Virus record (IMG/VR): IMGVR_UViG_3300008219_000073
Span: 1 to 27,117 of that record
DNA: 27,117 bases
Source: a virus
Direction: 5' to 3' (one strand)
Within the stretch, counting starts at the first letter, position 1, and every line of letters starts with the position of its first letter. Below the pieces are notes generated by a model. It was not told the origin of the DNA and searched no databases. It saw nothing but the letters and a program-made list of their open reading frames with translations. Shown here piece by piece: positions 8,869 through 23,335 of this stretch. The position numbers and the translations under genes are program-made.

Positions 8869-9057
8869 ATGGAACCGCGCAACATCGCAGAATACATACT
8901 CAGTATAATTGTAGACGGGCAATCGCGATCTATAGCACTCAGAGATGCTGTAATACATTTCGATATAGATGTAGATGGTTCGATGTATCGTGAGGTATTG
9001 GACGCTCTAGTGGAATTGGAGCGTGAATTTGACCATGATCTATGGTCTACAATATGA
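8869..9057 (+). CDS. 62-aa acidic protein, first gene of the rightward operon
   Basis: A short acidic protein. The pattern (EYILSIIVDGQSRS, DAVIHFDIDVDG, REVLDALVELEREFDHDLW) suggests two helices around a small sheet, and the EVLDALVELERE segment could be part of a winged-helix-like fold, but no family is recognised. The ATG is preceded by AGGA at short spacing. Its stop overlaps the next start as ATGA. Being promoter-proximal and small it could be an early regulator (inference only). Confidence 0.55.
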   Translation: MEPRNIAEYILSIIVDGQSRSIALRDAVIHFDIDVDGSMYREVLDALVELEREFDHDLWSTI

Positions 9058-9716
9058 TGCAAAACGTAGCATTCACACCCAACAGTAGCAATCGAAAAAC
9101 CGGTGCCATGCCGGTTTCCTACTCAACAAAAGACTGGTGTCCGGATTCCTGCCCACTCAAGGAGCACGGGTGCTATGCGAAGCACGGGCACACCGGAATG
9201 CACTGGCGCAAAGTGACAGCCGGTGAGCGCGGTATGGACTGGAATACATTCGTTTCCAAAGTACGTCACCTGCCAAAAGGTGGAATATGGCGGCATAATG
9301 TTGCCGGTGACCTGCCAATACATGATCACGGCATGATTCAACAATTGATCCGTGCCAATCGTGACAAAGGTGGATTCACGTACACCCATCACAATCCATT
9401 TGATGCTGACAATGCGGCAATCATCGCTGAATCTAATCGTGACGGTTTTACAATCAATCTATCGTCAAATAAGGTCACTGAGGTCGATGCGCTGGCCGCT
9501 CTAAGCATTGCTCCGGTTGTGACTATCCTACCTACCGGTAGCGCAAAAGTGACGTACACGGCGGAAGGGCGGAAGGTGGTCAGGTGCCCCGCTGAAACGT
9601 CTGCAAAAGTAACGTGCCAATCATGCCGGTTGTGTCAGAAAATAGACCGGCCTATAATCGGTTTCACGCCGCACGGTAGCGGCAAGAAAGTAACTCAGGA
9701 GATAGCGACAAAATGA
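9054..9716 (+). CDS. Cysteine-rich 220-aa phage/plasmid protein (DUF7227-like), function unknown
   Basis: Two cysteine clusters stand out: C29, C33 and C40 (CPDSCPLKEHGCYA) and C178, C188, C191 and C194 (CQSCRLC). Between them are conserved-looking patterns WRHNVAGDLP, AN-x6-FTYTHHNP and GFTINLSSN. I recall this arrangement from a widespread uncharacterised phage and plasmid family; my recollection of the number DUF7227 is not checked. Seven cysteines could hold zinc or an Fe-S cluster. The start is taken at 9054 because it makes an ATGA overlap with the previous stop; an ATG at 9042 is also in frame. The next gene overlaps its end by four bases. Confidence 0.7.
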   Translation: MMQNVAFTPNSSNRKTGAMPVSYSTKDWCPDSCPLKEHGCYAKHGHTGMHWRKVTAGERGMDWNTFVSKVRHLPKGGIWRHNVAGDLPIHDHGMIQQLIRANRDKGGFTYTHHNPFDADNAAIIAESNRDGFTINLSSNKVTEVDALAALSIAPVVTILPTGSAKVTYTAEGRKVVRCPAETSAKVTCQSCRLCQKIDRPIIGFTPHGSGKKVTQEIATK

Positions 9717-20424: not shown

Positions 20425-20635
20425 TTGGAGGGAGAAGTGGGAAGCTGATCAGGAACACCGCAGGCTGTGCTTCGCAAGATACTGTTGGGTAAGGCGCGGA
20501 CGAGTAGCCCCATCCGGTCTATTTTGGGAGGAGGCGTTTGAGAAGAGGGAAGGAATTAGTCTATCGAAGTATGCAGCGGAACGCATGAAAGAACGCAGCC
20601 AGAGGGAAAAGCAAGAATCCCGTAGTAAGTCATAG
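20408..20635 (+). CDS. 75-aa basic protein, last gene of the rightward operon
   Basis: A helical, basic protein with EHRRLCFARYCWVRRGRV and a C-terminal charged helix (SKYAAERMKERSQREKQE). The HRRLC-x-x-RxxW piece resembles a small phage family of unknown function (DUF7696-type, from memory). It starts inside the nuclease gene. Its final 80 bases overlap, on the other strand, the end of the leftward 111-aa gene, so this is where the two transcription units collide; no terminator hairpin is evident. Confidence 0.5.
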   Translation: MRDYSNWREKWEADQEHRRLCFARYCWVRRGRVAPSGLFWEEAFEKREGISLSKYAAERMKERSQREKQESRSKS

Positions 20636-20891
20636 CACCCTCATGCTCGCCCAATGAGTCATGCCGGTCAAGAGTGGTGGCGATCTTCACAGTGTCATCA
20701 TCTTGCGACACCAACCAGCCAACCGACTCCATCACCGGGCACTCTACTTTATCTGCGGTAGTCCAGTCAGAATACTGTATAATATCCCGCCATTTTACCC
20801 TTACTAGCGTTTCTTCTTCACCTTCTGTAACGGCCCCGGTATGATCCACCCGATCACCATTGGAAGTAACAGAACTAAGCCTAACAGCCAT
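20556..20891 (-). CDS. 111-aa conserved phage protein, function unknown
   Basis: The middle RVKWRDIIQYSDWTTADKVE followed by SVGWLVSQDDDTVKIATTLD resembles, from memory, a short beta-rich family found in many phages, with a shared W-RDI-x-SDW and VGWLxxxDDD plan; its role is unknown. ATG 20891 is used, but it overlaps the lipoprotein gene by 88 bases, and a GTG about 14 codons downstream (20850 region) is a credible alternative that better matches the length of relatives. The 3' end overlaps the convergent gene by 80 bases. Confidence 0.6.
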   Translation of the reverse strand: MAVRLSSVTSNGDRVDHTGAVTEGEEETLVRVKWRDIIQYSDWTTADKVECPVMESVGWLVSQDDDTVKIATTLDRHDSLGEHEGAMTYYGILAFPSGCVLSCVPLHTSID

Positions 20892-21217
20892 CCGCCCATA
20901 CCCACCAATTTACCAAGTAATGTAAAGAAATTATCCGGCGCTTGATTGACCACAGTATCGGCAGTAACCGCAATGGGTTCACCCTTAATCGGCTCCGGCG
21001 CACTCACCGCAGAGACAGTTACAGCCGTTGCTCCCCCGGCTAGTGCTGGTACAATCGCACCCCCCGTCAAGGCACTCGTTGCACCAACAACTGCGGTAGT
21101 CGCTGCCCCTGTCATCAGACTGCTCTTTAATTTCGGCAAACTGCATCCTGCGATACTCAGTGAGAAAAGGACTAGCCAAAGAGATACATAACTACGATTA
21201 ATATTACGACTGCCCAT
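20804..21217 (-). CDS. 137-aa lipoprotein with two hydrophobic segments, holin-like tail
   Basis: Signal peptide with lipobox SIAGC (residues 21-25, C25). After it comes a Gly/Ala/Thr-rich hydrophobic stretch (about 38-72), a polar link, then a strong transmembrane segment (about 98-128, with GWLLGLVLLLPMVIGW) and a basic end QKVKKKR. The basic tail after a membrane helix is holin-like, but true holins are not usually lipoproteins. It sits beside other small membrane genes, so a lysis role is possible. GGGAG lies nine bases before the ATG. Its 5' end overlaps a 30-aa membrane peptide in another frame. Confidence 0.65.
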   Translation of the reverse strand: MGSRNINRSYVSLWLVLFSLSIAGCSLPKLKSSLMTGAATTAVVGATSALTGGAIVPALAGGATAVTVSAVSAPEPIKGEPIAVTADTVVNQAPDNFFTLLGKLVGMGGWLLGLVLLLPMVIGWIIPGPLQKVKKKR

Positions 21218-21264
21218 AAAGGTTTCTCCCTAATTTCTGCCCATAGTTTTTTGATTATGTCCAT
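21172..21264 (-). CDS. 30-aa single-pass membrane peptide
   Basis: Starts at ATG 21264 with GGAGA five bases upstream. A charged N-terminus (KKLWAEIREKP) is followed by one hydrophobic helix (LWAVVILIVVMYLFG) to the end. The last 46 bases overlap the N-terminal part of the lipoprotein gene in another frame, and its mRNA contains that gene's ribosome binding site. Such a size and topology suits a pinholin, antiholin or regulatory membrane peptide. A longer in-frame extension to 21501 overlaps the whole Fe-S carrier gene and is not believed. Confidence 0.5.
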   Translation of the reverse strand: MDIIKKLWAEIREKPLWAVVILIVVMYLFG

Positions 21265-21274
21265 ATTGTCTCCA

Positions 21275-21580
21275 TTATAGTGTGAATGATGAACCGCAAC
21301 CACAGGAAGATGCTCCCGTAGGTGGGGTGAAATGGAAGGATGGTTTGAATGGGTCATCGTTCCAATCCATAACTGCATCTCCAAGTAAGTTAAGGGAATT
21401 GGCATCAGAGTAGATAGTTTCTGAGCCAGAGATAAGGGTCGCATCCGTTGGTAGCTCTCCAGTGGGCGATAGCTTGATTCTGTAGCCTGAACATCCGCCA
21501 CCTTCCAGATAGATTCCTAAGAACCCTTCCCCATTTATTACTTGGTCTACCTTGTTTTGTGCAGCCTCTGTAATAATCAT
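21275..21580 (-). CDS. A-type Fe-S cluster carrier (IscA/SufA/ErpA family)
   Basis: A 101-aa protein that in bacteria receives and delivers iron-sulfur clusters to apo-enzymes. The three ligand cysteines are intact: C30 in LEGGGCSGYR and C93/C95 in SSCGCGSSF, with the family's spacing of about 63 and 2. Length is also standard (about 105-120), and the start ITEAAQNKV is family-like. It lies three bases after the SufT-like gene, in the late-strand membrane block. It is an auxiliary metabolic gene; likely targets are host Fe-S proteins, since no Fe-S enzyme of the phage is visible here. Confidence 0.9.
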   Translation of the reverse strand: MIITEAAQNKVDQVINGEGFLGIYLEGGGCSGYRIKLSPTGELPTDATLISGSETIYSDANSLNLLGDAVMDWNDDPFKPSFHFTPPTGASSCGCGSSFTL

Positions 21581-21583
21581 TGG

Positions 21584-21913
21584 TCACAGCATACCCATTT
21601 CTAGTTTAGTGTGCATTGGTATCATCTCTTGAGTCCACTGCGGATCGAAAGTCATTTCTACCTCTACAGAATCTACACCAGAAACCCTGCAAGCATCTCT
21701 AACTTGATTGTATAGGGTATCGCCAACAGGGCAGAATGGTGAGGTTAGTGTCATAAGAACCTTGCAAGATTTACTATCCAGAGAAAGAGCATAGATTAAA
21801 CCAAGGTCATACACGTTGGTAAATATTTCTGGGTCATACACCTTGCGAATATTAGATACGATCTCATCCATCGTAGAACTCTCGCCCTCTACGTATTCGT
21901 CAACGTGTGGCAT
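21584..21913 (-). CDS. MIP18/SufT-like (DUF59) Fe-S maturation protein
   Basis: A 109-aa protein matching the DUF59 family (SufT, PaaD, MIP18). It reads KVYDPEIFTNVYDLGLIYAL (25-44), then MTLTSPFCPVG (54-64) with the conserved Cys61-Pro62, and ends VEVEMTFDPQWTQEMI (83-98), all in the family order. Relatives help deliver Fe-S clusters to target proteins. The gene starts one base inside the stop of the 85-aa gene (TAATG) and precedes the A-type carrier by three bases, so the two would be made together. Confidence 0.88.
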   Translation of the reverse strand: MPHVDEYVEGESSTMDEIVSNIRKVYDPEIFTNVYDLGLIYALSLDSKSCKVLMTLTSPFCPVGDTLYNQVRDACRVSGVDSVEVEMTFDPQWTQEMIPMHTKLEMGML

Positions 21914-22170
21914 TAGTCAAGTATCTTACGCACTACTTCGCGTCCCTCCCAGTTATTTTCTACTGCAACCTCATGCTTCTCGCAAGCGTAACGGGTATTG
22001 GTGTCAGCATTATCCTTCCATCCATTTCGAGAAAGTGTCCGTTTCATAGCTAAACATCCCGGCACACCCATCTCTACCCATTCACCTTTCTCATTCTCTT
22101 GGTGACCCATGAACTCAATGAGGCTTCCATTAAGGAATAACATAAGCACAAACATAGTTTTAATAATCAT
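21913..22170 (-). CDS. 85-aa exported protein, function unknown
   Basis: Signal-peptide-like N-terminus (MIIKTMFVLMLFLNGSLIEF) followed by a polar domain with two cysteines (VPGCLAMKRTLSRNGW and TRYACEKHEVAVE), which could form a disulfide in the periplasm. I recall similar short exported proteins with paired Cys in phages of aquatic bacteria but know no function. It starts two bases after the 142-aa gene, and its stop shares a base with the SufT-like start. Confidence 0.55.
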   Translation of the reverse strand: MIIKTMFVLMLFLNGSLIEFMGHQENEKGEWVEMGVPGCLAMKRTLSRNGWKDNADTNTRYACEKHEVAVENNWEGREVVRKILD

Positions 22171-22172
22171 TG

Positions 22173-22601
22173 TTAGTTTCCATTGTGTGCCTTTAAGTTA
22201 GCTACGTTATCTTTTAATGTTTCAACTTTTCCCTCAAGAGTTTCGATTCTCTGTTTGTAGAAGTCCAATGTAAGTGCTTGCTGCTGATCGAATGGAGCTT
22301 TACCTGTTTCAATGTTGTGCAGAAGTTTGTCGAACTCCCCGCTGAGGTGCTCGATCAACATAAACTGCTCTGCATCAGCAGGGAGTGAGCCTAGGTCACC
22401 TCTAGGCCACTTGATCCTGAACTCCGTGTTCTTTACTAGGTCAGAGTTGACAAGGATCATCTCTGTTTCGATTCGATTAAGCCTTTCAATGATACCAAAG
22501 TAAGCCCATACTCCAACAGCAACAGAAGCAACCAAAGAGATCAGGTTGCGAATAGGCATAGCGAATTTAGTTCTATCGCTTACATCAATCGCATCGCTCA
22601 T
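22173..22601 (-). CDS. 142-aa membrane-anchored coiled-coil protein
   Basis: One transmembrane segment (about residues 18-40, LISLVASVAVGVWAYFG) near the N-terminus, then a long coiled-coil ending KQRIETLEGKVETLKDNVANL. This single-pass plus periplasmic coiled-coil plan recalls inner-membrane spanin subunits (Rz-like), but length and Cys content do not settle it; a lysis or membrane-attachment role is inferred. It starts TAATG within the end of the 109-aa gene. Confidence 0.55.
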   Translation of the reverse strand: MSDAIDVSDRTKFAMPIRNLISLVASVAVGVWAYFGIIERLNRIETEMILVNSDLVKNTEFRIKWPRGDLGSLPADAEQFMLIEHLSGEFDKLLHNIETGKAPFDQQQALTLDFYKQRIETLEGKVETLKDNVANLKAHNGN

Positions 22602-22930
22602 TAGTAATCGCCGTAGCCATAACCCTTACTGCTTTGCTGCATAGGCCCAGCCGATCCTTGATTACGAAGTATGTCAAATAATCTACTATGCTGATTTGCT
22701 ATATCAGAATTAGCTTCCCTAATTCTTTTGAGTTCATCACTGATCTGTTCAGTTTGAAACTTCATTACATCCAGACCCTTAATCGCTTCTTCCAGTGCAG
22801 GTATTGATGTACCTTGAACTCCAGCCAACCTTTCCACTTCCGAAGATATGGACGAAGCCCACCAGATAGCCCCACTTGTCTGAGCAACCAGAAATAATAT
22901 TGCACTAAAGAATTTAGCATCTATTTTCAT
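22601..22930 (-). CDS. 109-aa membrane-anchored coiled-coil protein
   Basis: Hydrophobic segment at residues 7-24 (FFSAILFLVAQTSGAIWW) and then a helical region (VERLAGVQGTS, KFQTEQISDELKRIREANSD), ending in a Gly/Tyr tail GYGYGDY. Topology matches that of the 142-aa neighbour, so the two could work together. It overlaps the DUF6356-like gene upstream by four bases. Confidence 0.5.
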   Translation of the reverse strand: MKIDAKFFSAILFLVAQTSGAIWWASSISSEVERLAGVQGTSIPALEEAIKGLDVMKFQTEQISDELKRIREANSDIANQHSRLFDILRNQGSAGPMQQSSKGYGYGDY

Positions 22931-23115
22931 CGTGTAGATAGTTTCTCATTGAGATATTTAATTTTATCTGAGACTGTACCAGTTAAAATCCAAGGACATA
23001 AGCCATGCACTATAGAAACAATTGAAAGAAAGAGTAATACAAGACTAAGTTGTACAGTAAAAAATAGATGATTTCCATAAGTTTCCTTAACTAGTTCTAA
23101 GTGTTTGCATTTCAT
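22927..23115 (-). CDS. DUF6356-like small membrane protein
   Basis: A 62-aa protein with the DUF6356 pattern: HLELVKETYGNHL, a membrane helix (about 17-40), then HGLCPWILTGTVSDKIKYL. The family occurs in proteobacteria and phages; function unknown. The start is taken at ATG 23115, four bases after the previous stop; a GTG at 23127 is in frame but overlaps the upstream gene. Confidence 0.65.
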   Translation of the reverse strand: MKCKHLELVKETYGNHLFFTVQLSLVLLFLSIVSIVHGLCPWILTGTVSDKIKYLNEKLSTR

Positions 23116-23119
23116 TATT

Positions 23120-23335
23120 TTATCCACTGAGCCATTTTGTAACCATTGATGCAGTTGCTCCGCTGATTCCTACAATGCCTAACACTACACCAATGCCAAT
23201 ACCTTTGGTGCGCTCTAATTGTTTTTCTAAAGAGTTCAAGCGTAATGTATTTTCACGCAAAGATGCTTCCATTGCATCAACCTTTTGGCAGAGTCTACCT
23301 ATCTCAAAGCGATCAATGTCTACAGTATCATTCAT
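23120..23335 (-). CDS. XhlA-like coiled-coil/membrane protein
   Basis: A 71-aa protein: coiled coil at about residues 10-42 (LCQKVDAMEASLRENTLRLNS) then a C-terminal membrane helix (GIGIGVVLGIVGISGA) and a short positive end. This is the plan of the XhlA family of phage lysis proteins and of several holin partners. ATG 23335 overlaps the previous stop (ATGA). Confidence 0.6.
   Translation of the reverse strand: MNDTVDIDRFEIGRLCQKVDAMEASLRENTLRLNSLEKQLERTKGIGIGVVLGIVGISGATASMVTKWLSG

Follow-up and report, generated by a model that had tools for sequence, protein, structure and literature searches.

The two adjoining genes at positions 21275-21913 on the minus strand of a marine phage genome fragment encode an A-type Fe-S carrier (ATC1) and a SufT-like DUF59 protein. 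We consider that they probably constitute a phage-borne Fe-S delivery module, relaying clusters from the host SUF system to host Fe-S enzymes late in infection. The whole stretch analyzed here (27,117 nucleotides; hereafter, the window) is a 27-kb linear virus fragment that includes terminase and SU10-type portal genes. Named phage relatives in GenBank gave distant matches only; as pointers to the host, the terminase matched Vibrio and Pelagibacter phages, and the membrane block matched Pelagibacter phages. The pair is located among genes for small membrane proteins, listed below in the order of the minus strand (the coordinates of the carrier and DUF59 ORFs include the stop codons).

22927-23127, minus strand: DUF6356 small membrane protein, 66 aa (cluster 2)
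22601-22930, minus strand: membrane coiled-coil protein, 109 aa (cluster 4)
22173-22601, minus strand: membrane coiled-coil protein, 142 aa (cluster 3, phrog_20984), also in Pelagibacter phages
21913-22170, minus strand: upstream neighbor of the pair, 85 aa (cluster 14, phrog_24646); its stop, in TAATG, marks the putative insertion point
21584-21913, minus strand: DUF59/SufT-like protein with Cys61-Pro62, 109 aa; the start codon ATG and the stop of the preceding gene overlap in TAATG
21275-21580, minus strand: A-type Fe-S carrier ATC1, 101 aa, ligand cysteines 30, 93 and 95
21172-21264, minus strand: small single-span membrane ORF, 30 aa, directly after the carrier
20804-21217, minus strand: 137-aa lipobox protein (cluster 1) with a C-terminal hydrophobic span, usually found next downstream of the carrier
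20556-20891, minus strand: cluster 5 protein, 111 aa, the last gene of the block

The carrier passed the cut-off of Pfam PF01521 (E 5e-8; 33.6 bits against 26.3), scored exactly at that of TIGR00049 (E 5e-16; 58.8 bits) and matched IscA/ErpA-type chains in the PDB with E values down to 2e-9. An AlphaFold2 model (pLDDT 88, pTM 0.77) resembled IscA with a [2Fe-2S] cluster (1x0g; E 1.9e-5, TM 0.76) and SufA (2d2a; TM 0.79), and the predicted fold is that of IscA/SufA. The DUF59 protein matched PF01883 (FeS_assembly_P; E 7e-12; 45.8 bits against a cut-off of 23.5) and PDB TM0487 (E 5e-18). Its best match among all families was TIGR02945 (SUF_assoc; E 7e-30, 103.3 bits), whereas it scored 44.3 bits against PaaD (TIGR02159; cut-off 108.15), suggesting that this protein is nearest to the SUF-associated SufT type. 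These data agree with the first-pass annotation, made from the sequence, which had described an intact carrier with C30, C93 and C95 and an intact DUF59 protein with Cys61-Pro62, three bases apart; those bases, between the DUF59 stop and the carrier start, are CCA. Neither protein reached the equivalog cut-offs of its cellular counterparts. The carrier scored 49.2 bits for ErpA, 41.8 for SufA and 36.0 for IscA (cut-offs 117, 136.2 and 150.6), and the DUF59 protein was below the 143.4 bits of SUF_assoc. Therefore, the partner specificity of the carrier may differ from that of cellular carriers, and the proteins should be called an A-type carrier and a SufT-like protein rather than SufA, ErpA or PaaD.

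Conservation among relatives was in accordance with functional genes. The cysteine triad (C...CxC) was kept in all 53 distinct full-length viral copies of the carrier, C61 was invariant throughout the alignment of phage DUF59 proteins, and pairwise dN/dS values were approximately 0.08-0.20, indicating purifying selection. The dN/dS values and the intact triads ruled out chance or decayed ORFs, and the carrier gene is selected accessory cargo.

A scan of viral contigs with the carrier yielded 68 loci, with 68-100% identity across the best segment. These loci shared a conserved order, in which membrane protein genes are followed by the carrier and usually by the lipobox protein; early genes on the opposite strand or packaging genes lay beyond the block. 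The location of the pair on the late strand, which had been regarded as unexpected, is thus the ordinary one, since dozens of related marine phages hold the carrier in the same membrane-protein block. In a tree based on about 100 columns, too few to resolve the deeper branches, the viral copies formed a single, fully supported clade distant from cellular carriers. These findings suggest that phage Fe-S carriers are old viral lineages under selection, rather than one-off captures from hosts.

The cluster 3 membrane protein matched 38 phage records, of which 34 are from Pelagibacter phages. Since lysozyme or endolysin genes were found near it in several of these phages, the surrounding genes are likely to form a lysis or envelope block. 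A scan of the block for promoters and terminators gave nothing exceeding chance. When loci were sampled from the cluster 3 side (the best 80 of at least 594 matches, biased to close relatives), an A-type carrier was present in 11 of the 22 loci that also had the lipobox gene, and in only 3 of the 58 without it. The carrier is accessory, since half of the sampled block-bearing phages had no carrier at all. These data bear on a very improbable explanation, in which the membrane/lysis block has taken the carrier into its own function, for example as a trigger that senses redox state or iron, or as an iron component of the virion. The usual position of the carrier and the lysozyme or endolysin genes near the pelagiphage relatives of the block would fit such a role. 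However, the 11 carrier-free phages with the same block argue against it, as do the empty sites in L218 and L219, the carriers located upstream of cluster 3 in L223, L224 and L226, and the related carriers of T4-like phages, whose surroundings differ from the membrane block.

Comparison of the loci further suggested how the pair was assembled. L218 and L219 keep the upstream gene without a carrier. In L008 and L009, which have carriers with 88% identity to the window carrier, ACTTGACTAATG leads directly into the carrier. The identical ACTTGACTAATG in the window leads into DUF59 and then the carrier. These three states show a clean gain or loss of DUF59 at the single TAATG junction. L005 also has DUF59 followed by the carrier, with a different gene upstream. 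Among the relatives, L005 thus keeps both genes together, L008 and L009 have the carrier alone, and other loci have ATC2 or a knuckle gene in front of it.

The gene immediately before the carrier was indeed variable across the loci. DUF59 filled this position in the window lineage and in L005. At least 11 loci had a second, divergent carrier there (ATC2, in which CGGC replaces CGC), and about 10 loci had a small protein with CxxC...CPWCG. This last protein, seen in L010, L026, L032 and others, has 55-67 aa with a zinc-ribbon or rubredoxin-like knuckle, and occupies the DUF59 slot. A third carrier, ATC3, directly followed ATC2 in L120, L123, L128, L131, L136 and L040/L042, with ATC1 further along in L040/L042; the two adjoin in reversed order in L135, a 41-kb contig. 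Two or three divergent carriers in tandem per phage were thus observed in L040, L042, L120, L123, L128, L131 and L135, with an extended loop in ATC3. It is possible that such tandem carriers form heterodimers. A more speculative extension, which we regard as tentative, is that carrier parts evolved in phages make up a common pool among marine phages and are paired at one slot as DUF59+ATC1, ATC2+ATC1 or ATC2+ATC3. The divergent carriers would then be obligate partners, comparable to mitochondrial ISCA1/ISCA2, tuned to seize the output of the host SUF system during infection.

The closest relatives of the DUF59 protein were also found in phages. Relatives on viral contigs showed 72, 67, 66, 57 and 56% identity, proteins of T4-like phages being 66-67% identical, as compared with at most 51% in the bacterial and archaeal collection. 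In the tree, the window protein grouped with those of L005, L079 and L080 (support 100/86), and this group was nested in a 13-member, all-viral clade (98/84). Since the viral identities and the all-viral clade outweigh the bacterial matches of 51% or less, passage of DUF59 between phages is more likely than fresh capture from a host, and recent capture was rejected on the same comparison; an ancient host origin is possible. The idea that several of the IMG/VR DUF59 matches are host flanks was also discarded, as 4 of the 20 tested contigs with DUF59 or carrier genes have a T4-like Gp23 capsid gene over the cut-off. L079 carries T4-like late-regulator and helicase-loader genes, and this T4-like phage fragment also has a SufE-like gene near DUF59 (L079:3295-3684; a weak match, E 4e-5). 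L080, a 39.8-kb viral contig (IMG/VR 3300003702_000032), encodes SufB over the equivalog cut-off (L080:1892-3316; 876 bits against 717), ATC2, rubredoxin and DUF59, all inside 4.4 kb; the contig also has two 2OG-oxygenase-like genes and a HAD-like gene. Gp23 was not found on the L080 fragment, the viral status of which rests on IMG/VR, on the phrog match of a 2OG-oxygenase and on the resemblance to L079.

We next consider which enzymes may receive the clusters. That the pair supplies clusters to host or phage enzymes, as the first-pass annotation had proposed, is still the best functional reading. Maturation of a phage-encoded Fe-S protein, such as the DUF7227 protein or an enzyme encoded in genome regions beyond the fragment, is a less probable alternative. 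The DUF7227 protein (9042-9716, plus strand) is the sole Cys-rich protein of the window that could be a client; it has seven conserved cysteines, in C-x3-C-x6-C and a C-terminal cluster, weakly resembles GP88, and gave a barrel-like model of low confidence (pTM 0.60). However, a structure search with this model found no significant match (best PDB E 0.013) and the gene was present in only 3 of the 15 carrier-bearing small-phage contigs, and on these grounds it was set aside as a client. T4-like contigs with DUF59 or carrier genes have up to 19 radical-SAM genes, in agreement with PMC5332604, some of them adjoining DUF59, and T4-like phages of this kind also encode ferredoxins, which favors phage clients in those phages at least. 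The 322-kb contig L082, which carries a Gp23 capsid gene, has 19 radical-SAM matches, and its DUF59 gene is flanked by radical-SAM genes. By contrast, no radical-SAM gene was found in the window or in the 15 contigs with the window-type carrier, all of which are fragments. Because of this absence and the sparse occurrence of DUF7227, host enzymes are the likelier clients, by exclusion within fragmentary records; as the window is a 27-kb fragment, a client encoded by the phage may be located beyond its ends.

Two other proposals were rejected. A PD-(D/E)XK nuclease considered as a Cas4-like Fe-S protein has few C-terminal cysteines, which are missing in other members. Placement with the B12-dependent RNR had also been expected, but class II RNR lacks and does not need an Fe-S cluster, so that no link is to be expected, and the carrier was not beside RNR in the compared contigs.

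The preferred reading, delivery to host enzymes, finds a parallel in the suf operon of SAR11. At seven Pelagibacteraceae loci, the operon ends with DUF59 and then sufA across a short gap; the order in L139 is sufB-C-D-S-U-DUF59-sufA, where SufC, D, S and U were named from ORF reading, without a profile. The phage pair has the identical two families, order and short spacing, but differs in standing alone without sufBCDS and in sequence, with 26-29% identity of the carrier to SAR11 SufA and 39-46% for DUF59. The phage, which encodes the carrier and DUF59 together as a small module on the late strand, would thus substitute for the final two genes (sufT-sufA) of a SAR11-type operon. The clusters would come from SufBCD with SufS/SufU, the scaffold of the host SUF system, and would be loaded onto host Fe-S enzymes. 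This may sustain metabolism in the late phase of infection, a time of high demand after synthesis by the host has ceased. Within the membrane/lysis block, the pair would then be swappable cargo, outside the function of the block itself. It is conceivable, but quite unlikely, that the proteins instead withdraw clusters or iron from the host, by diversion or sequestration, to shut the host off or to store iron. Competition between an apo-carrier and host SufA could have this effect, whereas the full ligand set, the two cooperating families and the host-operon order point to productive transfer.

Genes for Fe-S delivery have been described in ocean viruses before. In marine environmental viral genomes they include genes for an A-type carrier, IscU and PaaD, one T4-like genome having an A-type carrier, a DUF59-family gene called PaaD and many radical-SAM genes (PMC5332604, 2017), and sufE and nifU were reported from an oxygen-minimum-zone virome (PMC8940887). 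The window shares with the former an A-type carrier in a marine tailed phage, but differs in that the two genes adjoin as an operon, that the phage is small, is not T4-like and lacks radical-SAM genes, and that the DUF59 protein matches SUF_assoc far above PaaD (103 versus 44 bits). Small marine phages with A-type carriers, termed auxiliary metabolic genes, also include HMO-2011-type phages with erpA/iscU (PMC9038755) and OM43 phages with sufA (PMC10580990); a DUF59 partner, a family-wide context or a swappable slot is not described in the available portions of these two papers. In Staphylococcus aureus, SufT and SufA act under high Fe-S demand (PMC4982691). This SufT is, like the phage DUF59 protein, stand-alone with a single conserved cysteine, and acts alongside SufA, although it is a cellular and experimentally tested protein and the phage protein is known from sequence. 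In the open-access literature, we found no compact DUF59-carrier operon in a small phage, no clean one-junction gain or loss and no exchangeable carrier pairs with T4-like relatives, which is weak evidence of absence. What differs here is the swappable slot and the closest relatives being in phages. Taken together, these results suggest that operon pairs mimicking the host suf operon are kept by phages, both T4-like and small phages having related genes, and raise the testable claim that the loading of Fe-S enzymes limits phage production in hosts of the iron-poor ocean, such as SAR11.
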